Source: Aquimarina muelleri DSM 19832 (GTDB taxonomy: Bacteria > Bacteroidota > Bacteroidia > Flavobacteriales > Flavobacteriaceae). From it: a stretch of DNA of 64,000 bases. The DNA is taken from the NCBI RefSeq assembly GCF_000430665.1, contig NZ_AUML01000003.1:177648-241647 (forward strand), written 5' to 3'. Below the pieces are notes generated by a model that saw nothing but the letters and a program-made list of their open reading frames with translations, did not search any database and had not been told where the DNA came from. The translations under genes and the position numbers were made by a program. This document shows, piece by piece, positions 24,201-40,497 of this stretch; position 1 is the first letter of the stretch; each line of letters opens with the position of its first letter.

Positions 24201-26833
24201 GCCTCCTCATCAAAACCATTTGCATTATACAGCATAACATCTTGATTAAAATGATGTCTGTCGGTTTGGTGTTTTTCAAAAAACCATTTCTGTACAGGAG
24301 CTAATTTGATTTCTCCTTCTACAGTTCCTTGTTCGCTATTAACAAATGATATGGGTTTAATCTGCTTACTTAACGCTTCGATAGTTGGATATTTAAATAC
24401 ATCCTTCATATCTAGTTTGAAACCATAATCGATAAGACGCGATACAATCTGAATAATTTTTATAGAATCTCCTCCTGTTTTAAAAAAGTTATTCTTTATC
24501 CCAATACCTTTAATTCCTAATACTTCTTCCCATATTTTAACTAATATAATTTCTTGATCATTTGTTGGTTCTACATACTCATTATCAATACTAGGTAATG
24601 GCAATAATTCTTTATCTATTTTACCATTAACGGTAAGAGGTAGCTCCTCTAAAGGGATAAAAAATGAAGGAATCATATAATCTGGTAGTATTTCTACCAA
24701 ATACTCACGAATAGAGGTTTCTGATATTTGATCTTTTATTGTATAATATGCGCAAAGATATTTTTGTCCCTGATCTCCTGTTTTGGCAACAACTATTGAT
24801 GATATTATGCTTTGATGTTTTAATAAGCTTTGATTTATTTCTTCAGGCTCTATTCTATAACCATTAATCTTTACTTGATGATCTATTCTGCCCAAAAATT
24901 CTATATTACCATCAGGGAGCCATTTGCCTAAATCTCCTGTTTTATAGAGATATTCATACTCCTTTTCTGAGTACGGATTTTCTATAAATGCCGCTGCTGT
25001 AAGTTCCTCGTTATTAAGGTATTCTTTTGCCAAATTAACCCCTGCAATACATATTTCACCAGCTATCCCCTCTGGAACTAATTGCCCATATTTATCTAAT
25101 ATATATGTCTTAACATTAGCAATAGGTTTTCCTATTGGAATACTTGTACGGTTTATATCTTCTACTCCTACCTTATATGTACTTACACATACAGCACATT
25201 CTGTTGGGCCATAAGCATTATAATACTCTAAAAATTGACTGTATTTTACCGCTTCCTCTACATTTGCAGCTTCTCCAGCAGTTATCATTACTCTTAAAAA
25301 TGATAATTCATCAGAATCTAATCCTGATAAATACACTGGTGGTAACGTAACTACACTTACTTCTTTTTCTTTTATATACTGAGTGAATATCGCGGGATCA
25401 TTAATAGTTTCTCTATCTGCAATAACCAGTGCTGCCCCTGTATATAAAGCCATGAATATTTCATAAATAGAAGCATCAAACGATAGTGATGCAAACTGTA
25501 GTATATGATCATTTTCTGTAATAGAAAATTGTCTGATTTGATCTAATGCCATGTTTACATTACTAATATGCCTCAATACAACTCCCTTTGGTTTTCCTGT
25601 TGAACCAGAGGTATAAATAATGTACGCAGAACTGCTAGGTAGAATGTCTAATTTCGGTTTTTGATCACTCGTCTGTAAGTTTCCTAATTCGTCTTCTATA
25701 AGAAATGATTTTCCTGTATAAAAATCTACTGCCTCTAATTGTTTTGTATCCGTTATTAGCACACTAATATCGGCGTCATCAATAATATATTTTTTTCTAT
25801 CTTTTGGATAATCAGGATCTATCGGTAAGTACGTACCTCCAGCCTTCATTATGGCCAAAATACTAATCATAGCCTTTTCAGAACGATTAAGCATAACTCC
25901 AATTATACTACCGATCTCTATGTTATATTTTGTTATTAAACAATTTGCTAATTGATTAGCTTGTTCATCAAGACTCTTATAAGTGATCTTTTTATCCTTA
26001 TATATTATTGCTTCGTTATCTGGTGTTCTTTGTACTTGTTCTTCAAATAATGATACAATAGTACTAGCAGAAGGGTATAATGTTTTTGTATCGTTAAAAG
26101 ATTGAAATCTTACTATTTCTTCATCTGTTAATATACTTAATGTACTTATAGGTTTTTCTATTGCATCTGTTATTACTGAAATCCAATGGGCAAAATGAGA
26201 TGCTAAACTTTTAACAGTTTCCTCTTTATATTTATTATCGTTATACAGTATACTACACTGAATCTCTTTTTCTACTCGCTCAAAAGAAAATAATAGTTGA
26301 AACCTGACTGTATCCAAATAGTTCTCATCATGTATGTTTTTTAAAATAAAACCAGTATCCAATACAAGTTGATCCTTAATTGTTTTTCCAGATATTTTTA
26401 ACAAATGTTTTTCTACTGGATAATTCTGTTTTTGAGATGCATCTATAATAACATCTTTCATTTTAATAATAAGCTCTTTAAAGCTGTTTTCTGCTCCTAT
26501 CTCGGCATATAATGGTAACAATGTGTTTATAAAATCAACTTCCTCTTTTTGTCTAATAATAGGAGAAAATAACAAACTCTTCTTTTGATTCGTATATTTA
26601 AACAATAGAGAATTAACGGCAGCCAACAAAATCATAAATAGTCTCTGATCTGAATTGCCACTTATAGAAACTATATCATTTCCTGTTTTTTCTGGTAATA
26701 CAAACGTGTATTGTTTTTGATTGTATGTATTGTCTTCTGTATTATTTTTTGAATATGGGAAATAATTTTTATTGATAATTAAGGATAAGCGATCTGTCCA
26801 ATATTGTTTCAATTGGTTTAATTCATTTTCCAT
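9239..26833 (-). CDS. Non-ribosomal peptide synthetase, half-C-(A-T-E)-(C-A-T-E)x3
   Basis: This 5864-residue second synthetase starts with about 255 residues resembling only the C-terminal lobe of a condensation domain, with no HHxxxDG. Then follow A-T-E and three full C-A-T-E modules of about 1460-1500 residues each. All four carrier domains carry GGDSIK, usual for carriers before epimerases. Each epimerase has HHL[VI]IDG and EGHGRE plus a GWFT motif; the last has SLR instead of SWR after HHLVIDGV. The internal C domains have DCL-like openings (SPMQKGLFF, SPMQEGMLFH, SSMQEAILFE), consistent with D-configured donors. Hand-read codes are D-A-Y-T-I-A-A-V-C (Phe-like, as GrsA), D-A-I-W-I-G-G-T-F (Val-like), D-F-W-N-T-G-M-V-H (Thr-like) and D-I-G-E-I-G-S-V-D (Orn-like). 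The protein ends in an epimerase with no thioesterase, so the chain passes to another synthetase. It is 93 bp downstream of the starter synthetase. Confidence 0.97.
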   Translation of the reverse strand: MENELNQLKQYWTDRLSLIINKNYFPYSKNNTEDNTYNQKQYTFVLPEKTGNDIVSISGNSDQRLFMILLAAVNSLLFKYTNQKKSLLFSPIIRQKEEVDFINTLLPLYAEIGAENSFKELIIKMKDVIIDASQKQNYPVEKHLLKISGKTIKDQLVLDTGFILKNIHDENYLDTVRFQLLFSFERVEKEIQCSILYNDNKYKEETVKSLASHFAHWISVITDAIEKPISTLSILTDEEIVRFQSFNDTKTLYPSASTIVSLFEEQVQRTPDNEAIIYKDKKITYKSLDEQANQLANCLITKYNIEIGSIIGVMLNRSEKAMISILAIMKAGGTYLPIDPDYPKDRKKYIIDDADISVLITDTKQLEAVDFYTGKSFLIEDELGNLQTSDQKPKLDILPSSSAYIIYTSGSTGKPKGVVLRHISNVNMALDQIRQFSITENDHILQFASLSFDASIYEIFMALYTGAALVIADRETINDPAIFTQYIKEKEVSVVTLPPVYLSGLDSDELSFLRVMITAGEAANVEEAVKYSQFLEYYNAYGPTECAVCVSTYKVGVEDINRTSIPIGKPIANVKTYILDKYGQLVPEGIAGEICIAGVNLAKEYLNNEELTAAAFIENPYSEKEYEYLYKTGDLGKWLPDGNIEFLGRIDHQVKINGYRIEPEEINQSLLKHQSIISSIVVAKTGDQGQKYLCAYYTIKDQISETSIREYLVEILPDYMIPSFFIPLEELPLTVNGKIDKELLPLPSIDNEYVEPTNDQEIILVKIWEEVLGIKGIGIKNNFFKTGGDSIKIIQIVSRLIDYGFKLDMKDVFKYPTIEALSKQIKPISFVNSEQGTVEGEIKLAPVQKWFFEKHQTDRHHFNQDVMLYNANGFDEEALEITFRKLLAHHDALRILFKSEGEEIIAYNRGEVTDKLFKYEIFDLLDIDNFDSSIEAEVTKLHSSFSLSKGPLVHVGLFRTQKGDYLQIIVHHLVIDGISWRILLKDLQEIYAQAITNTKEIKLPLKTNSYKFWIDTLYKYIEKGINSNIIKYWDSISKIEVEPLPKDKIVNNRTFKDLATITVNLGNQETTQLLRQVNHAYNTEINDILLTALGISFSKWTKSNKLRINLEGHGREDIFEGIDISRTIGWFTTIFPVVINIEEEQDLSYTIRSVKENLRKIPNKGIEYGILKYLSDEKVETTNAEIAFNYLGQIDQDTTSEHFEVSSRKGGEYMSKDMETPYSIMIDGIIKNDQLVLNFNYHATEHYEDTITTLAKNYVENLKYIIKHCIERDNAIMTPSDYGASISIDELTTVQESVLAYGIKKDIKKIYNLSPMQKGLFFYFLRSKKSKTYSIQSFVDVEGKIDEVILEESLDRISKRYDVLRTNFIHENISNPIQFVYDERSLEFTSSDVSHFSKEEAEKQVNMLIKRDLDKGFDLEKEGLFRIQLIRTEKDKYKLIWNIHHIIMDGWCLSILYNDLFSTYLEVKEGREANLTEVTPFQEYIYWLEKQDNDAMLSFWKEYLTGYDKKALIPKDKIVIGEQSRRIDRKTIILEEEIVNKFSELSQKYQVTSNVLIQSIWGILLQKYNDTDDVVFGVVVSGRPTEIKGIEEMVGLFTNTVPLRIRNKSTNFETLVQEAQQEFLEIKEREYLPLVEIQGQVELKNELIDHIMMFENYPVDEALSNLEIDEQLGFKVSNHQTYEETDYDFYVTIIPGATYQVIFSYDQNVYESETIDRLGEHFQKILNTVLSQPEIDIKNIELNSEADKIQLELYNNTSIPYPSTDNIASLFEEQVAQHPEHIAISFDQVSLTYQTLNNKANQLAHALQSKGIGKEDIVAIYGERSLETTIAILGVIKSGGVYLPIDPAYPKGRIDHMLTDTGAQLMIVSGSHESPEDFMGTVLRLEEVEIANYSTTNIEAKIPSDQLCYIMYTSGSTGTPKGVQIMHRNVIRLVKSCTYINLDEQTRFLQTGAPVFDATTIEIWGSLLNGGSLYLIDNDSLLDAKKLGQKIKEYQINTMWLTSPLFNQLVNQDLTIFEPLRYLIVGGDALSPPHINSVREMFPNLQLFNGYGPTENTTFSTIYAITKTHDRNIPIGKPIANSTAYVLNTNHQIQPIGVFGELYVGGDGVARGYLNNKELTKERFIENPFQPTERLYKTGDVVRWLPEGVLEFAGRADQQVKVRGYRIELGEITHRLLEHEDIIEGIVITRTNEHNDKYLCSYYVGKNGEINAEELKSHMKESLPEYMVPSFYIHLEQIPLTTNGKVNKKALPEPTLQEEVTKGVNAIEEKLIQVWEEVLGIKNINTNTDFFNIGGDSIKSIQIVVRMAEYGYQLELDDVFAYNTITKLSQRIKEVTPKQIDQDLVEGQSPLTPIQEWFFENNHTKPNHFNQDVMLFRENGFDETVVYNSFKELILHHDILRANFVKQVDSNVLIEYTKDACSSFDIKVFDFRGHPEADIEKEANILQASLNIEKGPLIQLGIFRTDEGDHLLVIVHHLVIDGVSWRVLLEDFATLYEQILKSESPKLPLKTNSFKDWAIAIQEYAKGTRLQNELTYWNEVVNEHVTALPTDGTVQNNNYENIVSTSVELTVEETTDLLRNVNQSYHTEINDILLTALGLSIQNWSKSDRVLLHLEGHGRENLFKDIDVTRTIGWFTGLFPVLLKMPEINSDLVTAIKTIKEDLRKIPNKGVGYGIINYLSSHPLTACNPEIVFNYLGQIDQDIPIGLFKISDLSGGDSESKTTNNKYKLLINSWIVDKKLKISISYNTHQYNESTIESLSYSYKNYLADIISHCITVAIPEKTPSDYGVSLSLSEYDLVQEYIKNSEDNREVDDIYHLSPMQEGMLFHHLFDDSKQAYCIQSIFDLEGELDTTLFEKSINKLCERHEIFRTGFFNDGISHPVQIIFSDRVAPVHNISLIEEEPYDLEKRVATIIREDLERGFDIFKEPLMRVHLIQLSENRYKVIWNFHHILMDGWCLSLMYTDFFNIYISLKDNVHPDFKEIKPYRNYIDWFYKINKTEMLNFWDSYLKGYEEQSSIPVDYVNTTDKYQLGERRIILDETIIKQFDELSSQYNITKNIIIQALWGILLQKYNDTNDVLFGAVVSGRPSEIQGIEDMVGLFINTVPVRIQAGKVSFVELLQETQRQFLKVQSNEYIPLSEIQGLTKLKGDLFDHIMIFENFPIDQSLYNMDLDTRLGFSVSNYDSYEETHYNLYLSVLPGKHLEIIINYNENVYESSTIDQVCTHFKQITDVILQTPEILLNDIEIITPVEKQELLKGSFNDTEANYPYHQTIHGKFEEQALATPNHTAVSWEDEEITYEVLNQRANNLAEALTSKGVVSEDIVGVLLDRSTDMIVSILAILKVGAIYVPIDPEYPEARINYILQDSNASAIIVHSTTKHQTEHTKKELLLIEINKLELDKESTYKNEFDIAADQVAYVIYTSGTTGNPKGVMINHRNVIRLLFNDKFQYDFSDTDVWTLFHSYCFDFSVWEMYGALLRGGELVIVPKEISRDPSKFGNLLANKKVTVLNQTPSAFYNLIPEIIDNQKELFLRYVTFGGDVLKPALLKEFFLQYPNTKLINMYGITETTVHATYKEIGAYEIENNISNIGTPIPTLTMYIFDKNRKLTPKGCIGELYVGGPGVAKGYLNREELTKERFIQNPYNPEERLYRSGDLARMTTNGELEYIGRIDHQVKIRGFRIELGEVENELLAIDCIKKAVVIAKKDKQDQPFLCAYYISENEFSFQEFKGMLSATLPDHMIPSYFVWMQEFPLNSNEKIDRKALPDPEFKGSDYIAPSTKIEEILVSVWEEVLGAKQIGVGDNFFEIGGDSIKSIQIVSKLKAYGYNLVVKDVFEQPNIALLSKMVKETQKFEIDQGIVTGEVVISPIQNWFFDSYPTYYNQLSQHLLLFNEDSLDPELMKESIDIILQHHDILRTKYQKKGDIISQYIEESIDGQYNFTVFDYSKEAKEVQKEKIEEEVNRLLLSLNIETGPLVQIGIFKTAEGDHLFIGIHHLIIDGVSWRILLEDLNTLYDQLKTKSKAKLPSKTTSYKQWATELQKYGSGIDESYKDWHTSEIEYWKSIDVTKVNPLVKDHIITENTYKDVRSMEFTFSKKITTQILTTVHQAYKTEINDILLTVLGLALKKWAKEDTFLISMEGHGREDILEQTDITRTIGWFTSIFPVLLDMSHTSDISYQLRIIKETLRRIPEKGMNYGILKYGYQAEELENPIWSIQPEICFNYLGQIDQDVTLDNFRKSDIVLENFENFDLENLYALNINSIVENQQLSVNISYNEKEYNKESIIRFSQLFQEALEDVVFHCISREKVETTPHDYKTDITLGELDYVKQRVGTLTSGASLEKVYKLSSMQEAILFEHMYNQEAGAYIIQLAFDIKGDLDLDLWEKSFSILVNHYDILRTRFIYDNVTVPLQVVLSESSVGLQYHDITEEKGTEKIIADFMKSDNQQSFDLWADSLMRVTIFKTDVEVFKVVWSFHHILMDGWCTSIMYDNFFTIYKQLKSNNQPLLGTARPYQDYILWYEQQPKNKALDFWSNYLSDYEDIATLPKQSQSNVQEGYELRSERLTLNKDTLVQIEKIAVENNLTISIVLQVIWGALLQAYNNTDDVVFGVVVAGRPSEIEGIEEMLGLFINTLPVRIRKESNFLEMLQKTKKDLINARTYEHCSLVDIQSQTALKNNLLDHVIIFDNLPKETQDPSAKEHLGFILGNAKMYDHINYDFYIDVYLGDDVEIDFCYNSLVYDQRIIEQVKGHFLSITEKVAKNPEARIEDVTLIPEYQVQNLLNKHSYEDFAYEKTIQEEFELQAAQFPNKEAVIYGDGIGETLTYETLNSRANQLAQVLRDKGVTRNTIVGIYAGREISSIVVILGILKAGAAYVPLDKAYPAERINYTIEASGINTLIATSTLKEGMFYEGEVIELNSISWSQEIVPNLENINSPSDLAYVIFTSGTTGNPKGVMVEHKSFVHVSYVWRRDYGYEKVTPNLLQIAGFSFDIFMGDIGRSLLHGGSLVICPEDTRLDWEELYKLLQQRQITVFESTPALIIPFMQYVFENDLKLDSLNLLIIGSDIFRMEDLKEIANNFENQFRVINSYGVTEATVDTCFYEEPLALMNSNGNVPIGKPMPNMQMYVLDDTMNLLPEGTIGEMYIGGPGVARGYLNNKYPEEISILNQEKFVEDPFHKGNILYKTGDLVKWLPDGNLAFLGRKDFQVNIRGYRVEIGEIEDILLKYKTVKEVAVVAFTDASGGYYLAAYYSITNQEKEEVKSADDLRAFLSEQVPSFMVPAYFVELDKLPLAPSGKIDRKQLPKPDSSLLDDATYTEPSNKTEEVLASIWQAVLGIEKIGVTNDFFASGGDSIKAIQVASRLNQHGLKLTIRDLFIHPTIKELSPYIKEGVRILTEQGIVTGEVKLTPVQQWFFDHFDGYNHFNQSVMLYKANGFDENILDKVISQLVVQHDALRMRFDISSHNTQYNAGIEEKTYDFKVFDLTSQENPQSVIETRVQEVQKSLDISKGVVFAIALYKTSEGDHLQLVFHHLVIDGVSLRIIFEDLTTVYTQLENGEHIQLPQKTTSFKQWAQALDQYTHTSKALGNEREYWEKIVNTETAILPKDNEITDRYFDQSTEVSVSLTEEETSKLLKEVNQKFNTEINDILLSALGLTIKDWTDSDKIIINLEGHGREEIINTVDISRTVGWFTVDYPIILDMYKSDDMSYTIKSIKETLRNIPNKGIGYGLLKYMTEGGRKIFNKQPEISFNYLGDFDQDIKKSLFEISPITSGVDVDLKQKNEFVLDISGFIMEGKLKFSFDYSKEEYQKETIELLAQKYKMYLTSIIDFSLNNNQVEYSPTDYGATDITLDELGSIEDVIEGLEIEI

Positions 26834-26926: not shown

Positions 26927-29900
26927 TTAGAAATTAAAACTTCCTGATTCTTCGTCTATTGACATAGCCATTAAGCGTTTTCCTTTTTCTGTTCCAATAG
27001 CACTAATTGGCTTAGAAGGATCTTTTAACAATCTTTTCAAAATATTTATGTAATTTTCTGAAAACACCTTGATTGTTTCTTGTTTAAAACATTGCGTTCG
27101 ATATTCAAATCTACATTCGATTTTTCCACCAATCTCTTCTGCTTCTAATGTTAAATTAAAAGCTGATTTCCCAATTGGGAATTGATATTGAATAGCCTTA
27201 AAGCTATCTCCAACAACAGATTCGCTATTAGTGCTTTGTAACACAAAGGCTGCATCAAATAATGGGTTATTACTAGAGTTTTCATGAAGTCCAAGATTCT
27301 TTACTAAATCTTCAAATTGATACTCCTGATTTTCTAATGCTTCTATAACACTTTGTCTTACTTCGTTTAGAAATTTTAAAAAATCTTTATCTTCCTCAGG
27401 AAAATTTCGCAATGCTAGCATGTTTATATACATACCAATAATATCATGCAATTCAGAAACGGGTCTGCCTGCTACAGGAAATCCTATGACTATATCTTCT
27501 TGTAAACTTTGGCTTTGTAATAAAATGTAGTATGCAGATAATAATGTGATAAATAAGGTTGTTTTGTTTTCATTTCCAAAATCCTTAATTTCTTTTGTTA
27601 ATTCTTCATCTATCTCAAAAATATAATCTAGACCTTTGGTAGTAGTATTTTCTGGAGTAGGAAAATCATATGGCAATCGTAATGACGCTACAGGTTGTTC
27701 GAATTTAGAAACCCAATATTTTTCTTGTTTTTGGTACGTTTTACTTTCTTTTAATTGATTATTCCAGAATGCATAATCTTTATATTGTATTGTTAGTTTT
27801 GGTAACTCCTCTCCATTATATAACTTTAAAATATCCTTTGAAAATATATTGAATGAATACCCATCTGTAATGATATGATGCATATCTATCAAAAACAAAC
27901 ATATTGGACTCTTGCTAACTGTAGTTTTAACCAGTTTTCTATCAACAACCTCCCAATTACCTTGTATTTGGAGTAGTTTTACCCTAAGTAAAGGACCTTT
28001 TTCTAGGTCAAAAGGATGAATAAACTCATGTATTTTACGCTGAATAACTTTTTCTGCTTCTTCTACACTTATATCGTTAGATAATATGATCTCTTCAGCT
28101 TTTAGAGGTATTACCACTTCTTTCTTAATTACCTGAACAGGTATTCCTTTTTCTAACCTAAATACTGTTCTAAGAGATTCTTGTAATTCTATCAACTTTG
28201 ATAATGCATCTTGAAAACGATCAACATCTAATGTTCCTTGAATTGTTAAAGCAAAAAACTCATTGTACGCTAGACTTTCTTTTTCTAACATATGCACAAA
28301 AAACATCCTTTTTTGTGCGGCTGATACTTCATAAAAATCTTGGGGTTTAACAGGTTGTATTTCCTGACTTTTACTTGTTTTTGAATGGATAATAAAATTA
28401 CTTATAGAAGTAATAGAGGAGTTTGTAAAAAACATTGCGATAGGTATTTCTACATCGAATTGCTTTTTTATTTTGGCTGCAATAAGTCCTGCTCTAAGAG
28501 AATCTCCACCGATTTCAAAAAAACTTACATCTAATGGAATTGCATTTACTATTTGTTTTTCTGTGAACGATAAAACCTCTTTCCATATTTCTACAAGTTT
28601 TTCTTCTGTTTGATTCTTAGGAATACTGTTTTCTTTACCAAAAACTTTTGAAAAATCTGGATCAGGCAAACCTTTTTTATCTATTTTTCCATTAGGAGTA
28701 AGTGGCATTTTGTTTAATTCAACCCATAACCTAGGTATCATATATTCTGGCAGCTTAGATTTTAGATGTTCTTCTAGGGCTTGTTTATCTAATGGATCTT
28801 TTGTTACTACATAAGCGATTAAACGTTTACCTCCAGAAGAATCCTCTTTAGCCAATACGCAACAACTCTTTACTATAGGTTCTTGAGATAATACACTTTC
28901 TATCTCTCCTAATTCTATTCGATACCCTCTTATTTTTACCTGATTATCTTTTCTTCCTACAAATACCATATTTCCATCTGGTAACCAATGTGCCAGATCA
29001 CCCGTTTTATACACTAGCTCTTTTGGATTAAAAGGATGTGCTATAAACTTGCTCATGGTTAATGCTGGTTTATTCAGGTATTCTTTTGCTAATCCTTCTC
29101 CTCCTATATATAATTCTCCTACAACTCCAATTGGCACCAACTCCTGTGATTCATCAAGAATATAAAAACTAGTATTATCTAATGGTTTTCCTATCGGAAC
29201 ATGAATCAAATCATTAAAACCTTCTGTATTATCTAATTCAAAATAAGAACTATCAATAGTACTTTCTGTAGTACCGTAACTGTTTAAAATCCGCATAGAA
29301 CTTCCAAAACGCTTATTCAATGTATCAAAATCAAATACAGAACAAACATCTGATCCTAAAACCAGTAATTTCATCCAAGATATATCTAATGAATTTTCAT
29401 AAATATAATCCATTAATGGGACTGCTAATGCTGGGGTTATTTCTAAAAAATTAACTTTTGAAGTTTCTATTACTTTATATAGTGCTTCTGGATCTAGTCT
29501 AGTATCTGATGGGCAAAGTATTAATTGTCCTCCAGACAATAACCCTCTGCATAAATCTCCTGAGAAAACATCAAATGAAAAACTTGCCATTTGTAATAAA
29601 CGGAGGTTCTCATCTAACTGGTACTTTCGTTTCCAGCACATTGCCATATTCAATAAATTGGCATGAGTAATTACTACTCCTTTTGGTTTTCCTGTAGAAC
29701 CTGAAGTATAAATAACATACACTGGTTGGTCTAAATTTATAACTATGTCTGGTACTGTTTTTGAAGCTTTCTTTATTTTTGAAGCCTCTGTATCTATTGC
29801 TATAATGGTTACCTTATCATTGGTGATTAGTTTTTTATATGACTTAGTAGTTACAAAAAACAATGCTTTACTGTCTTCTATTATATGATGAATTCGATCC

Positions 29901-32900
29901 AAAGGATAATCCGGATCAATAGACACATATGCTCCACCTGCCTTTAGAATTGCAAGCACCCCAGTAATCATTTCTAAAGACCGATCCATACAAATTGCAA
30001 CTAAATCTTTTGAAGTAACTCCTTTTTTTATCAAATAGTGAGCTAATTGATTCGACTGCTCATCTAATTCTGTATATGTTACTGTCTTTTCCTTATAAAC
30101 TACCGCAATATTATCTGGTGTTTTATGTACTTGATCCTTAAATAAACTTAGTATCGATTTATCTTTTGGATATTCAACTGCTGTTTCATTAAAATGAACC
30201 AATTGCTGCGTTATTTTTTTATCAGATAGTAAGTTTATTTGCTGTAATGTTGGATCAGAACCGCTCGTGATTTGATTCAATACAGTGGTATAAGTATCTA
30301 GAAATTCTAATGCTATCGCATCGCTTATAAAAGACTTACGATAATCCAGACTTATTATCAGTTCTGCATTATCTTCTATAACATTAAGAATAAGATCAAA
30401 ATCACTATACAGTGGTTTATACTCTTGTAGATTTAAGGAAACATCTTTCATTTCTAGTTCTCCGATGCTTACATCAAAATTTATAATGGTATTGATAAAA
30501 TTATCGTTACTAATACTAGTTTCTCTCTGCAACAATTCTACAAAATGTGCAAATGGATAGTCTTGATGCTCATACGCATCAAATAGTCTACGTTTTAATT
30601 CTACAAAATATAAGGACAATACGGCTTTATCATCGTAGGATGACGCCAAAGGAATATAGTGTGAAAAATCTCCTATAGTTTTATCTATATCAGACATAGA
30701 TCTTCCTCCTACGGGTAGTCCTATGACAAGTTCTTTTTGTTTACTTAATTTAAAAAGTACTAACTCAAAAGTAGCCAAGAATGTCATAAATAAAGTAAGC
30801 CCTTGTTCTCTGCTCCATGTTTTCAACAAATCAACCTTACCTGATTCAATTCGTATAACTTGGGAGCCACTTGTATTTCCTGCTTTCAAAACATTAGTTT
30901 CAAAAGGTAAGTTCAAGTATAATGTCTTTCCTGAAAAATTATTCAGCAAATATTCTTCATGATCTTTCCATGCTTTGGTTTGTTGCTTTCTTTTATACCA
31001 TTTTACATATTCTGAAAACTGTATTTTTATCGATGGTACATGAGGTTGGCCATTCATTAAAGTATTATAATTATGAACCAGTTCTCTAATAATTATTGCA
31101 CAAGACCAACCATCTGCAATTATGTGATGCATCACTATAAACAAAGTAAAATCTTCATCAGAAAAGCGAACTAAAAATAATCGTATTAATGGCCCTTCTG
31201 AAAAAGAGAAAGTTGTGTTTAGGTTTTCTTCTACTAATTCTTTATATTTTTGTTCTTGTTTTTCTTTTGGTTCTTCAGATATATCTATGTGTTTCAATAC
31301 TAACTCCATAGATGGATCAAATAATAATCTTTTTCCATCTTCTGAAATTTTACTTTGTAAAATTTGATGATCCTGAATAATATGTTGGATTGCTTTTTCT
31401 AAAACAGGTACATTCATACTACCTGTAATCTGAATCCCAAAAGATTGCATGTATGCTAAGGATCGCTGTGGGTCAATTTGATATAATAGGTTAAACTTTT
31501 CTTGAGTTAATGTAACTGGTGATGAAACAATCCCTTTTTCTAATTGTAATGCATTTTTGTCTTCTAATGATGTAATTGAGGAAGATACATACCTATCGGA
31601 ATTATGAGTAATATAAACACTTTCACAGATAGCTTCATATATACGAGTTATATCTTCATCTGTATGCGCAAAGGTTAAAAAATAATTATTTGAAGGTAAT
31701 GCATAAATGCCTCTTTCTAACAAATGGAACAATAATAGTTCAAAATCATTTTTATACTTAAATGAAAATAAGGATCCAAAGCATACCATCTCAACTGGTA
31801 AGGCTTCCTGTTTAAAAAAATTATTTAACCGATCTACTAAATCTTTGGTTTTTCTATTTAGTTCTAAATATCCGTCGTGTCCTATCTTTTTTATTTTATT
31901 AAGTACTGCCTTAGCAGCTGCCATTGCTAATGGATGTCTTGTAAAAGTACCCGCTACAAAAGTTCTATTCTCCATTGGGTAAGATTCATCTCCGTAGTAC
32001 CATATTCCTCCATCTACAGAATCTAAATACTTACTTGATCCAGCCACAGCACCAATTGGCATTCCGCCGCCAAGTATTTTACCATAAGTAGCCATATCAG
32101 CCTTTATCCCAAAATATTCTTGGGCTCCTCCTGGCATTATTCTAAATCCAGTAATTATTTCATCGAATATCAGCGGAATATCTAACTCTTTTGTCAACCT
32201 CCTCAATTCTTTTAATAGCTCTTTTGGCTGAATCCCCGGGTATCTGCTTCTTACAGGCTCTATAATAATTCCTGCAATCTCGCTCGCATTATTCTTTATT
32301 TTTTGAATGAGATCCTCATCATTATAATCTAATACAATTAGATCTTCTACCATTTTTTTTGTAATTCCAGGTGTCATAGGCTCTATGGTGTTTTCTATCT
32401 CTCCATTCGCTCCGAGTACAATTTCTGAATGCCCGTGATATGACCCTGTGAATTTAACAATCTTCTTTTTTCCTGTTACATTTCTAGCAAAACGCATTGC
32501 AAAGGATATAGCTTCTGTTCCTGTATTAGCAAAACAAACTCTTTCCATTCCTGTCTGTTCTGTTATTAAGCTTGCCACCTCTCCCGATAGTTTTGGTAAT
32601 GGCCCGATATTAATTCCCTCATGCAATTGCACTTCGATCGCTTTTATAATATCATCTGGTTGATGTCCAAAAATACAGGAGCCAAATCCATTTACAATAT
32701 CAATATATTCATTACCGTCTATATCTATAAACCTAGATCCCGAAGCTGTATCATTTACTATAGGATAAATCATTTCTTTGGTGGCAATTTTAAACCTAAA
32801 GCTAGAGCGATAATCTGCTAAGACCTTACGATAATCTACTGCATATGACTTAGATTTTTGTGTTTTAACTGTATAATTATCTATCAGATCTGGCAGTTGT

Positions 32901-35900
32901 AACTCTTGATTTTTTGGCAATTCTCCAAAGAACAAATACTGCTCATCAAAAGAGGGTAATATCTTTTTTCCTTTGATATGAATAGTTTCTTGTATATCTG
33001 TAGACTTATTCTTTTGTTCTGAAATTATAGTTTTTGTTTCTGCCCCCTTAGAAGATACTTGTGTAACTCCAACGGTACTCTCCTGCATAGTTATATTTCC
33101 AAATTGCATTAGCAGTTTATTCTGTGATTCAAACTGCTGCATTAATAGTTGGTTTTGAGTAGCGAATTGTCCCACTAATACCTGTAGGGCATCATTACCA
33201 ATTTCTTTATTTACAGATACATTAATATTGTTATTTGTATTACCAGAACTATTTACTATTGAACTTTGATCTAGATTAGAATTTACTGTTGGATTAGATA
33301 TCATTTCGTCTTCCAAAACAGTTTCTTCTATGATATATTTAATAATAGAGGCTAGATTTGTTAAATCATCAAATAATCTTCGAATAGGCAACTCTACTTT
33401 ATACTCTTTTTTAATTTTGGTTACAATTTCAGATAAGACAAGAGAATCTGCTCCTAATTGTAATAACGGATCATGTAAAGAAATTTCATCTGCATTCATT
33501 TGCAATGATCCCGAAATAATTTCTTTTAAACGTTTTTCTATATCGTTAGAAATTTTACTTGTAGTAGTCATTTGTTGGTTTTCCTTTAGGATTTGATTAA
33601 CGTCTAGTTCTTTTTGTACAATACCATTTTCTTGAATCCAATGTCTTTTTCTTTGAAAAGCATAAGTTGGACATGATATCTTTTTTGCTGTTCTCCCTTT
33701 ATAAAAGGATTGCCAGTTTATATTCTTTCCTGCTTGATATACTGTGTTAATACATTTTAGTAGCTCTGAATCCTCACTTTTACCTCTTCTCATCGTAGCT
33801 CCCCATATAGCTTTAGTATCATCTAGTACACATTGTTTTCCTAAGGAGATTAATACAGGGTGGGGACCTATTTCTACATACACATTAACACCTCGTGTTT
33901 CTAATGTCTGCATTCCTTGTAAAAAATCTACGGGTGCACTAATATGTGTTACCCAATAATCTGCTGTTATAATCTCATCTCCTGCAAGTTTTCCTGAAAC
34001 ATTACTTATTAATTTCTTTGCTGGTTTTTTATAATTTATTGTTTCAGCTACTTTTTTGAATTCGGCGAGCATTGGTTTCATTAGTGGAGAGTGAAAAGCA
34101 TGAGAAACTTTTAGCTCTTTATACTGTATTCCTTTTATTGCTAAAGCTTCACATATAGCAAATACTGTTTCTTTATCTCCTGATATAATTGTTTGATTAG
34201 GGCTGTTGATTCCTGCAAGACTAACTTTTTCTTTATGTATTTCAATAAATTCTGATACTGCTGTTACCCCACATTGTAATGACGCCATTGTTCCTACTTC
34301 TGGCAATTCTTGCATTAAACGTCCTCTTGCAGCAATTAATTTTAATCCTTCTTCTAAAGAAAACACGCCTGCTATACATGCTGCTACCAATTCTCCAACA
34401 CTATGTCCTAGCAATACATCTGGTTCTATTCCCCAACTTTCCCATAATTTATAGAGTGCATATTCTAGAGAAAATAATATAGGTTGTGTATATAGTGTTT
34501 GGTTTAATAGTGCTCCTTTTTCATTTTCTGCATCTGCTAATAAAATTGATACAATATCTTCTTCTAAATAAGCTTTCAATATAGATGCACACTGGTGTAA
34601 TGTTTCTTTAAAAACAGGTTCACTTTGATAAAGAGATTTCCCCATATTTATATACTGAGAGCCTTGTCCTGTAAATAAAAATGCTGTTGATAGTGTAGCT
34701 ATATTTTTGGGTTTTTCTAATAGAAATTCTTCTTTATTATTAAGCTTTTCTTTAAGATCTTCTATGTCTTTAGAAAGGATTCCTATTCGATTTGAAAAAT
34801 GACTTCTGGTGACTGATAAACTGTATGCTAAATCTCTTAAAGATAACTCTGGATTGACTTCTATATATTTTGATAAATTCTCTATTTGAGAATTCAGTGC
34901 TTCTTTATTTTTTCCTGATAATGGTATCAATTCCAGAGAACGTGATATCCTATCCTCGCTAAAGTTTTCTTTTTTTATTGGAGCTTCTTCTAATATAATA
35001 TGCGCATTTGTTCCTCCAAACCCAAAAGAACTTACTCCTGCTTTTATGCTACTATTTTCTTTTTCTTTTAATTCTAAATGTTTGTCAGGAATCACTACAT
35101 TAAGTGTACCCCAATTAATATTAGTATTAGGGGTTTTATAATGCAATTGTTTTGGAATCTGGCGATATTTCAAACACAATATGGACTTAATAACCCCTGC
35201 TATTCCCGCTGCTGCTTCTAAATGTCCAATATTTGATTTAACAGATCCTACAATTAATGGATTGGTTTCGCTCTTTTGTTTTCGATATACATTATTAAGT
35301 GCATTAATCTCTATTGGATCTCCCAAAGGAGTACCTGTTCCATGAGCTTCTACATAAACTATTTCGTTGGGTTCAATATTTGCTGATTCTAAAGCTGTTT
35401 TAATAACATTTTCTTGTGCTAATCCGTTAGGAGCGGTTAACCCATTACTTCTACCATCTTGATTTACAGCAGATCCTTTTATAATTCCTTCTATTTTATC
35501 TCCATCTTCTATGGCTTTAGATAGTGATTTTAATAATACCAAACCACAGCCTTCGCTACGTACATATCCATTAGCAGAATCATCAAAAGTTTTGCATCTA
35601 CCATCTTTAGACATCATATTTGCTTGGGATAATGCAACTGTAACATCTGGAGACAGTAATAGATTTACTCCTCCTGCAATAGCCATAGTTGACTCGCCAT
35701 TTCGAATATCCTTAACAGCCATATGAATACTTGTTAAAGAAGCCGAACAAGCAGTATCTATTGATATACTTGGCCCTCGGAAATCATAGAAATAGGATAA
35801 CCTGTTTGAAGTCATGTTCAAAGCGAGACCTGCTCCTGAATAGACATCTTTTGCTGTATCTTTTATAATTGTACTATAGTCGACTTGCTCTACTCCTATA

Positions 35901-38368
35901 TAAACACCTGTTTTTGTACCTTTCAAGTCTGATGGGATATATCCTGCTCTCTCTATCAATTCATGACTTAACTCTAGTAAAATACGCTGTTGGGGATCCA
36001 TAAATTTTGCCTCTCTGGGTGAGATCTCAAAAAACGAAGCGTCAAACATATCTACATCGTCTATAAACCCTCCCCAACGGGTATTCATATTATATCCATC
36101 GGTAGTATCTTTGTAATATTTATCTATATCCCATCTGGTTATAGGCACTTCTGTTATTGCGTCTTTTCCTGATTTCAAATTTTCCCAGAATTCTTCAATG
36201 GTATTTGCTCCAGGAAACCTGCATGCCATACTGATTATGGCAATAGGTTCATTTTTAGATAAAACATCAGGCCTTATCTCATTTGAATCAGATATCTCGG
36301 GTATGTTTTTTAAATAATTAGCTAAGCTATTGATATCAGGATAACTGTAAATTAATACTGGAGATATTTCTTCTCCCATAAATTCTGACAACATTCCTGA
36401 CAAGCGAATTCCTTGTATTGAGGTAATACCTAACTCGGCAAAAGATTTATAAATACTTACCCTAGATATATCTATTTTTAATTCTTCACTAATTGTCTTT
36501 TGCAACCATTCTTTAAGTAAATCCGCAGAGTGATCTGTTGTTTTGGGTTCTTGTTTATTCTTAACGGATGATTTCTTTTTTTCTTTAATAACTTCTCCTG
36601 TTACCCATCGATCAATAACTCCACTTATAGTATCTGATTCGAATACTATTTTTGTAGCTACTCGTTTTATTTTTCCGCTTGATGTTTTAGGAACATTACC
36701 TGGACTCACTAAAACAATACTGTGTATTGCTAATTCATGCTCCTGAAAGACGGATTCATATATAGATTTTATTATTGCTCCAAAATCATAACTTCGTATA
36801 CTAGTTCTTTTGATTTCCTGTACCATTGCTAATTGCTCTTTTCCATCTACTGTTATAGAAAATATAGCACCTGCATTATTTTGTAAATCTGAATGAGAAC
36901 GTTGTACTGTTTGTTCAATATCTTGTGGAAAATGATTTACTCCATTAATGATCATCATTTCTTTTAGACGACCCGAAATATAAAGCTGTCCCTTATTTAA
37001 AAAACCCATATCTCCTGTTCTTAAATAAGGCCCTTTATTTTTATCTACTATGTTTTTATTATCTCGAATATATGCAGAAAATATTTCCTTAGATAGATCT
37101 TTCTTATTCCAATACCCTTTAGTAACACTAGGGCCACTAATCCATATTTCACCTATAGCATTTGCCTCGCAGGCTTGTTTTGTATCAGGGTTAACTATTA
37201 TAACATCTAAGTCTTCTAAAACAGGCCCGTTACCCACAAATTCTATTAGATCTGCTTCTGGAGTTTTTTCGTTAAAAAGGGCGATTTTACCAGAACTAAA
37301 ATTAGCTTTATCTAGCTTTAAAGTTTCAGGAACTTTTTTAAAAACACAAGAACTAACTATCAAAGTTGTTTCTGCCATTCCGTAGCACGGCGTTAGAGAA
37401 GTCCTTTGAAAACCCAAGTGTTCGAAACTATCTGCAAAATTACCCATAGTTTCTGTACGAATAGGCTCTGATCCATTGTAAGCAATAAGCCAACTACTTA
37501 GATCTATCCCAATAAGATCTTCCTTTTTAATTTGATTTACACATAGATCATAGGCAAAATTAGGACCACCACTTAATGTAGCTTTATATTTAGAAATTGT
37601 TTTTAGCCACTTAACAGGTTTTTGAACAAATGCTGTTGGTGGCATAATAATCATCTCAAAACCTACATAGAAAGATTGAAGAATGTTTCCTATAAGCCCC
37701 ATGTCATGATAAATTGGTAACCAGCTAACCCCTATAGTTTGTGAGGTATGATGATTACAATTTTGGATAAGCTTACTATTATGAATAATATTAGAATGGG
37801 TAACCATAACCCCTTTAGGATCGCCAGTAGAACCTGATGTATATTGAAGAAATGCTACATCTTCTTCATTAACCAAAGGAAATTTTTTATCTATATCTTC
37901 TTCTAAAACATTAGTTTTAAGCCATTCTACTTTTGCAAAAACCTCATTATTATCAAACCAACTATTACTCTTACTATAGATATCTTCTGTAGTCATGATT
38001 AGATTAGCATCACAATCAGAAACAATTTTCTCTAGTCTACCTATTCTTCGTTTTCCTTGAGGAGGAAAAGCGGGAACTGCAATAACACCTGCTAGCATAC
38101 AACCAAAAAAAGCATCTACAAAATCTAACCCTGAAGGGTATAATAATAAGACTCGATCCCCTGGATTTACATGAATCAAAATATGAGAAGCAATTCTTTT
38201 AGATCTATTATATAGTTCTAGATAAGTTCTTGAATCACTTTCTGCCTCTCCATCTAACAAAAAACGGTATAAAACCTTATTTGGAGATTGTGTTAAATGA
38301 TTTTCGAATACTTGTATTAATGTTTTTGCCTCCTGAGTATTCTTAAATATCTGATTTGTGTATGACAT
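26927..38368 (-). CDS. Hybrid PKS/NRPS starter synthetase: FAAL-ACP-KS-AT-ACP-aminotransferase-C-A-T-C
   Basis: This 3813-residue protein begins the lipopeptide line. Approximate domains are: fatty acyl-AMP ligase 1-590 (YTSGSTGDPKG); ACP about 615-700 (LGITS); ketosynthase about 710-1135 (DTACSAS, EAHGTG, NIGHLEA); acyltransferase about 1215-1510 (GHSVGE, with HAFH suggesting malonyl-CoA); ACP about 1570-1650 (LGADSL); class III PLP aminotransferase about 1800-2240 (DEIITGFR, lysine in YGKILGGG); condensation (HHIIADG); adenylation; carrier (GGDSL); and a complete second condensation domain (HHIITDG). No ketoreductase is present, so the beta-keto group would be transaminated to a beta-amino acyl chain, as in iturin/mycosubtilin synthesis. 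The A domain reads D-V-G-E-V-G-S-I-D, an ornithine code. Unlike the iturin system, where malonyl transfer is by a separate protein, the AT is in cis. No epimerase follows its carrier, and the terminal C domain opening is LCL-like. Confidence 0.97.
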   Translation of the reverse strand: MSYTNQIFKNTQEAKTLIQVFENHLTQSPNKVLYRFLLDGEAESDSRTYLELYNRSKRIASHILIHVNPGDRVLLLYPSGLDFVDAFFGCMLAGVIAVPAFPPQGKRRIGRLEKIVSDCDANLIMTTEDIYSKSNSWFDNNEVFAKVEWLKTNVLEEDIDKKFPLVNEEDVAFLQYTSGSTGDPKGVMVTHSNIIHNSKLIQNCNHHTSQTIGVSWLPIYHDMGLIGNILQSFYVGFEMIIMPPTAFVQKPVKWLKTISKYKATLSGGPNFAYDLCVNQIKKEDLIGIDLSSWLIAYNGSEPIRTETMGNFADSFEHLGFQRTSLTPCYGMAETTLIVSSCVFKKVPETLKLDKANFSSGKIALFNEKTPEADLIEFVGNGPVLEDLDVIIVNPDTKQACEANAIGEIWISGPSVTKGYWNKKDLSKEIFSAYIRDNKNIVDKNKGPYLRTGDMGFLNKGQLYISGRLKEMMIINGVNHFPQDIEQTVQRSHSDLQNNAGAIFSITVDGKEQLAMVQEIKRTSIRSYDFGAIIKSIYESVFQEHELAIHSIVLVSPGNVPKTSSGKIKRVATKIVFESDTISGVIDRWVTGEVIKEKKKSSVKNKQEPKTTDHSADLLKEWLQKTISEELKIDISRVSIYKSFAELGITSIQGIRLSGMLSEFMGEEISPVLIYSYPDINSLANYLKNIPEISDSNEIRPDVLSKNEPIAIISMACRFPGANTIEEFWENLKSGKDAITEVPITRWDIDKYYKDTTDGYNMNTRWGGFIDDVDMFDASFFEISPREAKFMDPQQRILLELSHELIERAGYIPSDLKGTKTGVYIGVEQVDYSTIIKDTAKDVYSGAGLALNMTSNRLSYFYDFRGPSISIDTACSASLTSIHMAVKDIRNGESTMAIAGGVNLLLSPDVTVALSQANMMSKDGRCKTFDDSANGYVRSEGCGLVLLKSLSKAIEDGDKIEGIIKGSAVNQDGRSNGLTAPNGLAQENVIKTALESANIEPNEIVYVEAHGTGTPLGDPIEINALNNVYRKQKSETNPLIVGSVKSNIGHLEAAAGIAGVIKSILCLKYRQIPKQLHYKTPNTNINWGTLNVVIPDKHLELKEKENSSIKAGVSSFGFGGTNAHIILEEAPIKKENFSEDRISRSLELIPLSGKNKEALNSQIENLSKYIEVNPELSLRDLAYSLSVTRSHFSNRIGILSKDIEDLKEKLNNKEEFLLEKPKNIATLSTAFLFTGQGSQYINMGKSLYQSEPVFKETLHQCASILKAYLEEDIVSILLADAENEKGALLNQTLYTQPILFSLEYALYKLWESWGIEPDVLLGHSVGELVAACIAGVFSLEEGLKLIAARGRLMQELPEVGTMASLQCGVTAVSEFIEIHKEKVSLAGINSPNQTIISGDKETVFAICEALAIKGIQYKELKVSHAFHSPLMKPMLAEFKKVAETINYKKPAKKLISNVSGKLAGDEIITADYWVTHISAPVDFLQGMQTLETRGVNVYVEIGPHPVLISLGKQCVLDDTKAIWGATMRRGKSEDSELLKCINTVYQAGKNINWQSFYKGRTAKKISCPTYAFQRKRHWIQENGIVQKELDVNQILKENQQMTTTSKISNDIEKRLKEIISGSLQMNADEISLHDPLLQLGADSLVLSEIVTKIKKEYKVELPIRRLFDDLTNLASIIKYIIEETVLEDEMISNPTVNSNLDQSSIVNSSGNTNNNINVSVNKEIGNDALQVLVGQFATQNQLLMQQFESQNKLLMQFGNITMQESTVGVTQVSSKGAETKTIISEQKNKSTDIQETIHIKGKKILPSFDEQYLFFGELPKNQELQLPDLIDNYTVKTQKSKSYAVDYRKVLADYRSSFRFKIATKEMIYPIVNDTASGSRFIDIDGNEYIDIVNGFGSCIFGHQPDDIIKAIEVQLHEGINIGPLPKLSGEVASLITEQTGMERVCFANTGTEAISFAMRFARNVTGKKKIVKFTGSYHGHSEIVLGANGEIENTIEPMTPGITKKMVEDLIVLDYNDEDLIQKIKNNASEIAGIIIEPVRSRYPGIQPKELLKELRRLTKELDIPLIFDEIITGFRIMPGGAQEYFGIKADMATYGKILGGGMPIGAVAGSSKYLDSVDGGIWYYGDESYPMENRTFVAGTFTRHPLAMAAAKAVLNKIKKIGHDGYLELNRKTKDLVDRLNNFFKQEALPVEMVCFGSLFSFKYKNDFELLLFHLLERGIYALPSNNYFLTFAHTDEDITRIYEAICESVYITHNSDRYVSSSITSLEDKNALQLEKGIVSSPVTLTQEKFNLLYQIDPQRSLAYMQSFGIQITGSMNVPVLEKAIQHIIQDHQILQSKISEDGKRLLFDPSMELVLKHIDISEEPKEKQEQKYKELVEENLNTTFSFSEGPLIRLFLVRFSDEDFTLFIVMHHIIADGWSCAIIIRELVHNYNTLMNGQPHVPSIKIQFSEYVKWYKRKQQTKAWKDHEEYLLNNFSGKTLYLNLPFETNVLKAGNTSGSQVIRIESGKVDLLKTWSREQGLTLFMTFLATFELVLFKLSKQKELVIGLPVGGRSMSDIDKTIGDFSHYIPLASSYDDKAVLSLYFVELKRRLFDAYEHQDYPFAHFVELLQRETSISNDNFINTIINFDVSIGELEMKDVSLNLQEYKPLYSDFDLILNVIEDNAELIISLDYRKSFISDAIALEFLDTYTTVLNQITSGSDPTLQQINLLSDKKITQQLVHFNETAVEYPKDKSILSLFKDQVHKTPDNIAVVYKEKTVTYTELDEQSNQLAHYLIKKGVTSKDLVAICMDRSLEMITGVLAILKAGGAYVSIDPDYPLDRIHHIIEDSKALFFVTTKSYKKLITNDKVTIIAIDTEASKIKKASKTVPDIVINLDQPVYVIYTSGSTGKPKGVVITHANLLNMAMCWKRKYQLDENLRLLQMASFSFDVFSGDLCRGLLSGGQLILCPSDTRLDPEALYKVIETSKVNFLEITPALAVPLMDYIYENSLDISWMKLLVLGSDVCSVFDFDTLNKRFGSSMRILNSYGTTESTIDSSYFELDNTEGFNDLIHVPIGKPLDNTSFYILDESQELVPIGVVGELYIGGEGLAKEYLNKPALTMSKFIAHPFNPKELVYKTGDLAHWLPDGNMVFVGRKDNQVKIRGYRIELGEIESVLSQEPIVKSCCVLAKEDSSGGKRLIAYVVTKDPLDKQALEEHLKSKLPEYMIPRLWVELNKMPLTPNGKIDKKGLPDPDFSKVFGKENSIPKNQTEEKLVEIWKEVLSFTEKQIVNAIPLDVSFFEIGGDSLRAGLIAAKIKKQFDVEIPIAMFFTNSSITSISNFIIHSKTSKSQEIQPVKPQDFYEVSAAQKRMFFVHMLEKESLAYNEFFALTIQGTLDVDRFQDALSKLIELQESLRTVFRLEKGIPVQVIKKEVVIPLKAEEIILSNDISVEEAEKVIQRKIHEFIHPFDLEKGPLLRVKLLQIQGNWEVVDRKLVKTTVSKSPICLFLIDMHHIITDGYSFNIFSKDILKLYNGEELPKLTIQYKDYAFWNNQLKESKTYQKQEKYWVSKFEQPVASLRLPYDFPTPENTTTKGLDYIFEIDEELTKEIKDFGNENKTTLFITLLSAYYILLQSQSLQEDIVIGFPVAGRPVSELHDIIGMYINMLALRNFPEEDKDFLKFLNEVRQSVIEALENQEYQFEDLVKNLGLHENSSNNPLFDAAFVLQSTNSESVVGDSFKAIQYQFPIGKSAFNLTLEAEEIGGKIECRFEYRTQCFKQETIKVFSENYINILKRLLKDPSKPISAIGTEKGKRLMAMSIDEESGSFNF

Positions 38369-39709: not shown

Positions 39710-39712
39710 TAA

Positions 39713-39873
39713 TACGATTTACGAATAAAAATCTCGCATATAATCGCATTCTTTTTCTACTATATTTTCTTCATAAAATGAAACAATAGCTATGACTATT
39801 CTTTAATTTGATTCATCAATCTAGCGAAAAACCTTTGCAATTATTTATACGCAATTCTCATCCGTAAATCGTA
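39713..39873 (+). mobile_element. 161-bp MITE, copy 1, with TAA target duplication
   Basis: The non-coding element starts with tacgatttacg and ends with the exact complement cgtaaatcgta, and the terminal similarity continues imperfectly further inward. It is flanked by the 3-bp direct repeat taa (39710-39712 and 39874-39876). Nearly identical copies lie at 42456-42616 and, inverted, at 58385-58545. A short length, terminal inverted repeats, target duplication and no coding capacity define it as a miniature inverted-repeat element. A TWA target fits the TNA preference known for the IS5/IS1031 group; that assignment is inference. Confidence 0.88.
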
Positions 39874-40497
39874 TAAGAATCGACACCTAAACTATAATAG
39901 ACAATAAACTATTTTATATGTCTTAAGAAGATTCTAAATTTATTGTGGATCAAATTTTGTTCTTTTATCTGAAGATAATAGTTTAAGGTTGGTATAAATA
40001 TTAAAAGCACTCTTTAGCTAAAGAGTGCTTTTAATATTTAGGGCAAAATTATGTACTCTCTTTAGTTCAAGATTCGGGGTCTTTTTACTAATGTCCTCAC
40101 ACTTAATTCGACCCTGATGTATTCCAAACTAATATTTTAAATCCATATCGTCATACGAGCTAAAATATTAGTTTTTTATCATACATCAAGTTTTTTATTA
40201 TATTGTAAATGTAATGTAAAAAAACTATTAAAACAAAAAAAATTACGATAAAAAACATATAAAATCGATGAAATACACAAAATATTCACTTTTCAGTTTA
40301 AATTGAAAACAAAAATTCAAAAAAAAGATTGTTTTTTGAGTTTTTACCCTACATTGATGAACTATTTTATTTTTTCATGTTTATCGTATTTTTATATTAA
40401 TTAAAAAACCTGAATCTATATAAAGAGATATGCTTAGAAATGGAAATAAAAATAAATGTCTTAGAAATAGATATAGACGTACTGTAGAAAAAAATTA
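39874..40497. repeat. 624-bp tandem repeat unit 1
   Basis: First of two head-to-tail units with only scattered differences. The unit begins taagaat, directly at the right edge of MITE copy 1. It holds the perfect palindrome at 39995-40040. A second hairpin has 14-nt arms aaactaatatttta / taaaatattagttt around a 21-nt loop (about 40127-40175), inside an outer TGATGTAT/ATACATCA stem. A T-run follows the hairpin. No ORF of useful length is present. Confidence 0.85.
39995..40040. repeat. Perfect 46-nt palindrome, terminator-like, unit 1
   Basis: The arms meet at tctttag|ctaaaga and are self-complementary over all 46 bases, with A-rich and T-rich edges (aaaagcactc...gagtgctttt). This is the form of a bidirectional intrinsic terminator, but no gene ends close to it. 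Confidence 0.8.

Follow-up and report, generated by a model that had tools for sequence, protein, structure and literature searches.

The 3813-residue protein encoded at 26927..38368 (minus strand) in a 64,000-nucleotide stretch of the Aquimarina muelleri DSM 19832 genome (contig NZ_AUML01000003.1, positions 177,648 to 241,647; hereafter the window) raises the question of whether a flavobacterium holds an iturin-type synthetase, and of what such a synthetase would make. A preliminary description of this DNA had read the protein as a FAAL-ACP-KS-AT-ACP-aminotransferase-C starter, placed in a member of Bacteroidota and likely to serve a new family of beta-amino lipopeptides. The host is indeed a member of Bacteroidota, of the genus Aquimarina.

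Domain architecture and starter unit

The gene begins with ATG and runs as a single frame with no internal stops. Pfam and a domain-by-domain comparison gave the order FAAL-ACP-KS-AT-ACP-AMT-C-A-T-C, which agrees with the preliminary description and extends it by an A-T-C tail beyond the first C domain. The Pfam matches comprised AMP-binding (the FAAL), ketoacyl synthase, acyl transferase (185.5 bits), Aminotran_3 (178.5 bits), three PP-binding stretches, two Condensation stretches and a second AMP-binding domain. The domains, all on the minus strand, are as follows:

36569..38338 (minus), residues 11–600: FAAL (fatty acyl-AMP ligase); matches to solved FAALs
36284..36523 (minus), residues 616–695: ACP 1, motif LGITS; Pfam, domain comparison and motif
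34769..36268 (minus), residues 701–1200: KS, Cys-His-His motifs in place (DTACSAS, EAHGTGT and NIGHLE); Pfam and motifs
33689..34693 (minus), residues 1226–1560: built-in AT, motifs GHSVG and HAFH; Pfam and motifs
33299..33568 (minus), residues 1601–1690: ACP 2, motif LGADS; Pfam, domain comparison and motif
31589..32851 (minus), residues 1840–2260: AMT, class III aminotransferase of MycA type; Pfam, solved-structure match and alignment
30224..31528 (minus), residues 2281–2715: C domain after the AMT; Pfam and domain comparison
28649..30148 (minus), residues 2741–3240: A domain 1, code DVGEVGSIDK (Orn-like); domain comparison and code alignment
28364..28603 (minus), residues 3256–3335: carrier T of module 1; domain comparison
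26984..28342 (minus), residues 3343–3795: terminal C domain; Pfam and domain comparison

The AT thus lies within the chain, as had been proposed, and we take its GHSVG and HAFH letters to be of the malonyl type. No ketoreductase, dehydratase or enoylreductase model was found among the 13 Pfam families listed for this region, in agreement with the earlier claim that no ketoreductase separates the KS from the aminotransferase; nor did Pfam list there any monooxygenase or methylating domain like those of PuwE and PuwB.

Among solved structures, the N-terminal domain matched 7r7g (titled “Polyketide synthase”, 516 bits) and 3kxw (427 bits) best, followed by the FadD32/FadD23/FadD28 group down to 217 bits. 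The match to McyG was weaker (183 bits), and other adenylating enzymes reached at most 155 bits. Since the solved FAALs match best, we rejected the possibility that this domain is an ordinary CoA ligase or an amino acid A domain.

The AMT is flanked by an ACP and a condensation domain. Its best match among solved structures was mycosubtilin synthase subunit A (MycA; 6kfm, 6kfr and 6kfu) at 409.4 bits, while the next, glutamate-1-semialdehyde aminomutase, scored 211.6 bits. The domain could be aligned to that of MycA over 411 of 421 residues, and the contexts of the PLP lysine (YGKILGG) and of the Asp (FDE) are conserved. The MycA aminotransferase moves an amine from Gln onto an ACP-bound beta-ketothioester, as described in PMC3870968, which already names Bacteroidetes among the phyla with embedded PLP domains.

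In the mechanism that we propose, the FAAL would activate a fatty acid and load it onto ACP 1, after which the KS and AT would carry out a single malonyl extension on ACP 2. Because no ketoreductase is present, the AMT would act directly on the beta-keto thioester, transaminating it to a 3-amino acyl group, which the first C domain would then pass to an Orn-like residue. A beta-amino (3-amino) fatty acyl starter, as the preliminary description had predicted, is well supported and in our judgement probable, because the AMT is far nearer to MycA than to any other solved protein. Homology is the one line of support for AMT activity, and the domain could instead be inactive or act on another carrier-bound group, leaving a product with a beta-keto or plain acyl chain. 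We consider this improbable in view of the conserved PLP lysine and Asp contexts, the presence of both motifs in all 17 proteins that were checked, among them that of the window, and the occurrence of the AMT in the same place, at >700 bits, in eight other places in the genus.

Relationship to iturin synthetases and other beta-amino systems

Bacillomycin D synthetase A (BamA; P0189 and P0225) has the order FAAL-T-KS-T-AMT-C-T-C-A-T-C. It resembles the window's protein in the FAAL-ACP-KS-ACP-AMT-C order, to which the latter adds the AT, and in closing the subunit with a lone C domain; the AMT of the window's protein is in turn of the MycA type. BamA differs in having no AT and in carrying an extra T-C pair between the first C domain and the A domain. 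Iturin synthetases typically have no AT in the chain, the malonyl transferase acting in trans. The label “iturin-type” used in the preliminary description is apt for the starter logic and the domain order, but it does not extend to kinship: phylogenies of both the AMT and the KS separated the window from bacillomycin D synthetase and the Firmicutes proteins related to it.

In an AMT tree of 51 rows (FAAL and AT-less rows and six others), the window was one of 17 rows that formed a set with 100/100 support, while 15 AT-less Firmicutes rows formed a separate set (100/98). In a larger AMT tree of 97 rows, the window's set of 17 rows was supported at 100 and a Firmicutes set of 19 rows at 98. The input to the larger tree comprised 44 of 234 proteins, loci L120–L132, and loci L039–L086 except for single-domain rows and for L043, L048, L050–L052, L072 and L084; the weaker matches, loci L087–L118, were left out. 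Its Firmicutes set also contains two AT-containing Firmicutes rows (P0110 and L054) and one row from the window's own family, the AT-less KS-AMT-C locus L120 of genome G019. This exception is absent from the 51-row tree, from which L120 and L056 had been dropped. The KS tree (40 rows) likewise separated a window set of 14 rows (support 96) from a Firmicutes set of 11 rows (99). When the window's set was constrained to group with four Bacillus rows, a grouping chosen after the first tree, the cost was 66 log units (p-AU 0.0147). The seven rows of the window's 17-row set that have organism names are all from flavobacteria. Several of the others are proteins from the Aquimarina loci described below (P0002, P0004, P0006 and P0008), and the trees and the loci are to that extent not independent.

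Pairwise identities with BamA (P0189) were 30% for the FAAL, 41% for the KS and 48% for the AMT (47–48% for the AMT across bacillomycin D synthetase). The corresponding values were 44%, 54% and 55% for the Nostoc protein P0028, and 48%, 43% and 54% for the Gillisia protein P0027. Four proteins of the window's own set (P0002, P0007, P0010 and P0013) were considerably closer, with 61–67% in the FAAL, 62–74% in the KS and 62–68% in the AMT. The forks that would join the window to the cyanobacterial rows in the AMT tree are weak (63/86 and 84/64), and in the KS tree the window and the cyanobacterial rows are on a 28-row side (99) that holds others too.

If the gene had come from Bacillus by horizontal transfer, as a true iturin synthetase into which an AT was inserted later, this would account for the common starter logic and for the lone C domain that ends the first subunit in the window and BamA alike. 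This origin is extremely improbable: the window's and Firmicutes sets are separate in both the AMT and the KS trees, the joint grouping with the four Bacillus rows (named after the first tree) was rejected, the extra T-C pair of BamA is absent, and the FAAL is only 30% identical to BamA, compared to 48% with Gillisia and 61–67% with the four proteins of the flavobacterial set. Kinship with the Bacillus iturin synthetases was accordingly rejected on the two trees and the p-AU test. As far as these sequences tell, the starter works like an iturin starter, but the synthetase is outside the iturin family.

The AT-containing layout is itself not new. The complete order FAAL-ACP-KS-AT-ACP-AMT-C within one protein is identical in P0001 and in the Nostoc protein P0028, which reads FAAL-T-KS-AT-T-AMT-C-A-E. 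Beta-amino residues have been described from cyanobacteria (PMC13252402, PMC4219810). The puwainaphycin pathway combines a FAAL with a PKS module and an aminotransferase, with PuwE as the PKS module that carries the aminotransferase (PMC4219810). PuwC–E differ from the window in the monooxygenase that follows the aminotransferase in PuwE, and the pathway has an additional reducing and methylating PKS module, PuwB; neither feature is listed for the window.

Nor is the chemistry new to the phylum, because chitinopeptins A and B from Chitinophaga (Bacteroidota) are cyclic lipopeptides with 3-amino fatty acids (PMC9248904), and to call the chemistry new in Bacteroidota is too strong. The chitinopeptin systems differ from the window: as described in PMC9248904, three of the four clusters have C-starter domains and only that of C. 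niastensis has an initial PKS module, and the peptides have 14 residues with Dap and Lys, versus 12 predicted residues with four Orn-like positions here. Gene clusters of Aquimarina, seven AQU clusters among them, have already served to predict cationic lipopeptides, namely the aquicidines, the synAQU peptides and the aquimarins (PMC12677607). The synthetic peptides of that study were given tetradecanoic or 3-hydroxy acids, and its main text has no mention of beta-amino groups, FAAL or aminotransferase. Other metabolites and clusters of the genus are covered in PMC9323603, PMC10734526 and PMC13291983, and the table of a FAAL review has a single Bacteroidetes row, corramycin (PMC11837247). In the open literature searched, no report was found of Flavobacteriia making a beta-amino lipopeptide rich in Orn or Dab. 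What seems new is thus the predicted product, together with the flavobacterial branch of the starter, rather than the chemistry.

Assembly line, predicted peptide and accessory genes

The first synthetase is part of a co-directional cluster, and the gene set spans about 60 kb. The other major features are:

9239..26833 (minus): second synthetase, 5864 residues; half a C domain, followed by four A-T-E modules with C domains between them, with Phe-, Val-, Thr- and Orn-like codes
8273..9187 (minus): arginine deiminase/dimethylargininase-like protein, 304 residues; Pfam and homologue search
4928..8035 (minus): cyclic-peptide ABC exporter with a fused S12 peptidase-like domain, 1035 residues; Pfam and TIGR01194
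1..4683 (minus): start of the third synthetase, 8524 residues in all, at contig C3:156756-182330

The third synthetase passes the left edge of the window, extending to contig C3:156756. It has seven modules, two of them with E domains, and a terminal TE, and its codes are Orn-, Val-, Ile-, Leu-, Orn- and Thr-like, plus one without assignment. In total, the line comprises three synthetases with 12 A domains, six E domains and the terminal TE. All five C domains that directly follow an E domain, besides the query itself, matched the “Cd” query best, and in the third synthetase each of the four C domains preceded by an E-less module matched the “C2” query best; these C-domain types support the assignment of the E domains. 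Farther downstream on the same strand are a Cupin_8 gene, a stand-alone thioesterase and a CmlA-type diiron hydroxylase, beyond which there is an MFS gene on the opposite strand.

The half C domain that opens the second synthetase is left unexplained by the proposed scheme. Together with the 163-nt mobile-looking repeats and a 300-nt direct repeat directly upstream, it could indicate a decaying or silent relic that makes no product. We regard this as unlikely, since none of the three synthetase frames (3813, 5864 and 8524 residues) is interrupted.

The A-domain codes were read by alignment to a stretch of GrsA, with the tenth letter, K, added rather than read. The codes for residues 1–4 were DVGEVGSIDK, DAYTIAAVCK, DAIWIGGTFK and DFWNTGMVHK; for residues 5–8, DIGEIGSVDK, DVGESGSVDK, DAIWLGGTFK and DGFFLGVVYK; and for residues 9–12, DAWFLGNVVK, DVSEIGSIDK, DFWNIGMVHK and DVPNCCIVYK. 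By the usual code tables, the first eleven would specify Orn, Phe, Val, Thr, Orn, Orn, Val, Ile, Leu, Orn and Thr, respectively; the twelfth was assigned no residue (X). The E domains would give the D-configuration at residues 2–5, 7 and 10. The predicted order is then beta-amino acyl - Orn - D-Phe - D-Val - D-Thr - D-Orn - Orn - D-Val - Ile - Leu - D-Orn - Thr - X, and the chance that this exact sequence is correct is close to even. The general character of the product is less dependent on individual codes. With 12 A domains, of which four have Orn-like codes and none a Dab-like code, it is likely a cationic, Orn-rich lipo-dodecapeptide with four basic side chains. Iturin peptides begin with Asn, while the first code of the window is Orn-like. 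Iturins have a ring of seven residues (PMC4219810), compared to 12 A domains here, and this difference between a predicted Orn-rich 12-mer and the iturins makes the new beta-amino lipopeptide family of the preliminary description plausible.

Release of the chain is predicted to be by the TE, which may cyclize it through the beta-amino group in the manner of iturins. The Cupin_8 and CmlA-like enzymes would hydroxylate at least one residue, and the ABC protein would serve as the exporter. With a 3-amino-C14 chain, the cyclic product would have a calculated mass of 1454.995 Da plus that of residue 12, to which each hydroxylation would add 15.995 Da and a linear form 18.011 Da. The beta-hydroxy residues of the chitinopeptins have been ascribed to CmlA-like enzymes (PMC9248904). 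Judged only by the predicted charge and export, the product likely acts as a membrane-active antibiotic.

The exporter fusion passes the curated TIGR01194 cut-off (345.8 versus 286.2 bits). Its S12 domain aligns with Flp (145 bits) and ClbP (78 bits), and the 1035-residue protein also matches 7mde, titled “Beta-lactamase”, over residues 38–473, an entry that we take to be full-length ClbP. Such matches could mean that the acyl part is a leader, removed by the S12 domain as by ClbP, so that the final product would be no lipopeptide. In alignments with both Flp and ClbP, however, the Ser position of the S-x-x-K motif and the Tyr position of the second motif are both occupied by Glu, and consequently the domain is likely catalytically dead and would not cleave. 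Moreover, the leader of ClbP-type prodrugs is acyl-D-Asn, and none of the 12 A-domain codes reads as Asn-like. Leader removal is thus very improbable, and prodrug cleavage by the fused S12 domain was rejected on the two Glu substitutions.

The arginine deiminase-like gene is located between the second synthetase and the exporter, on the same strand as the former and 51 bp downstream of it. It is the only copy in the genome and possibly serves ornithine supply. Close homologues of the protein are listed for many Aquimarina. Among the seven other genomes of the genus that were examined, no more than three contain the gene, and G323 alone has it next to a FAAL cluster, in broken form. The gene may be incidental to the cluster.

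Distribution and basic residues in Aquimarina and beyond

The AMT was detected at E ≤ 1e-80 in 17 of 66 Aquimarina genomes. At >700 bits it was found in eight of the 66, own included, at nine places in all. The eight places other than the window all have the order FAAL-T-KS-AT-T-AMT-C, with a doubled T in G352. A further AMT locus in the genus (L163, on G323:C24) is A-KS-AT-T-AMT and not of the FAAL kind. Six of the eight other loci are incomplete, five of them at a contig end (G314b, G347, G350, G352 and G323) and one at the end of the stretch taken (G314a), and a TE was reached only in G355 and G310.

All eight other loci have at least one code that reads as Orn- or Dab-like. In seven of them, a stand-alone class III aminotransferase gene is located directly upstream of the FAAL gene, and in six of these seven at least one of the modules read has a Dab-like code; the exception is G314a, with none in six. 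The two loci without the upstream gene have no Dab-like codes (none of 12 in the window and none of two in G347, which is cut by the contig end). The one upstream aminotransferase scanned, of the seven, was nearest to diaminobutyrate–2-oxoglutarate transaminases, at scores below the NCBIfam cut-offs (424.8 versus 671 and 384.7 versus 401.6 bits), and the genome of the window has two close homologues of it outside the cluster (82% and 77%).

This pattern suggests, tentatively and at somewhat less than an even chance, that Aquimarina holds a class of cationic beta-amino lipopeptides, in which an iturin-like head made by the flavobacterial AT-containing starter is attached to polymyxin-like peptides rich in Orn or Dab, and the basic residue of each cluster is matched by its own supply gene, i.e., a diaminobutyrate transaminase or, in the window, the arginine-degrading enzyme. 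A beta-amino lipid head of the iturin type and a strongly cationic peptide usually occur apart; if the proposal is true, they would be joined in one product of a marine genus. The cationic lipopeptide clusters of Aquimarina have inspired active synthetic antibiotics, for which the acyl chain was chosen and not read from the genes (PMC12677607). For clusters with the present starter, a different acyl group would be suggested.

In the family sample, the AMT was found in 13 of 299 genomes, own included. Eleven of the 12 other genomes show AT-AMT in frames of 1893–2474 residues, short loci being seen in these cases, and the twelfth, G019, has KS-AMT-C without an AT. Beyond the genus, the same starter order was observed in proteins from Flavivirga, Flavobacterium and Nostoc. 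A scan of genome contigs, considered for the best 80 of 583 matches, added Chitinophaga (L040) and Pseudoalteromonas (L053), the latter with the first ACP not called. With the AT-containing form present in Nostoc, Chitinophaga, Pseudoalteromonas and several flavobacteria, beta-amino starters appear less of a Bacillus speciality.

Aminotransferase systems apart from the FAAL synthetase

Two loci encode an aminotransferase (AMT) or AMT-like protein outside the FAAL synthetase:

G000:C26:16442-17734 (locus L132, own genome), second AMT-like protein, 590 aa, with a KS-containing frame alongside
G019:C8:215122-216354 (locus L120, a genome of the same family, Flavobacteriaceae), KS-AMT-C frame without an AT

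Relatives of the L132 protein, 592-594 aa in length, are present in eight other genomes of the genus, and a KS frame lies alongside them in all six of the loci that were fetched (L141-L146). This pairing of AMT-like protein and KS is a system distinct from the FAAL synthetase. The 97-row tree places the aminotransferase of L120 inside the Firmicutes set, and the AT-less form may have reached the Flavobacteriaceae on a separate occasion.

The second synthetase and the genes beyond it

At its very N-terminus the second synthetase has half a condensation domain, the C-terminal part (window 26117-26830; profile positions 188-451, 79 bits), despite the full C domain that already closes the first synthetase. 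The following gene lies between those for the synthetase and the exporter:

window 8273-9187, arginine deiminase / dimethylargininase-like gene

This gene is single-copy in its own genome, and among the homologues listed are ones from Aquimarina and other flavobacteria at 69-78% identity. In G323, another genome of the genus, a broken copy (G323:C46:17513-18189) adjoins the FAAL cluster, and two unbroken copies are carried elsewhere. The cyclic-peptide exporter carries a fused S12 peptidase-like domain (window 4928-8035 for the whole protein) in which Glu occupies the positions of both catalytic residues, Ser and Tyr. Judged from its sequence, this domain is likely to be a pseudopeptidase that has been retained in frame.

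Repeats upstream of the first synthetase

window 39712-39874, 42455-42617 and 58382-58548, 163-nt MITE-like element with inverted ends
window 39925-40224 and 40550-40849, direct repeat of 300 nt (98%), upstream of the first synthetase within an AT-rich stretch
window 41163-41627, AsnC/Lrp-type regulator gene, adjoining the direct repeat

The MITE-like element is present in at least 40 copies of 96-100% identity in its own genome (40 of 112 candidates scored). That genome gives 77 matches altogether, of which the remaining 37 are weaker and lie on the opposite strand. The AT-rich stretch that bears the direct repeat has a G+C content of ≈24%.
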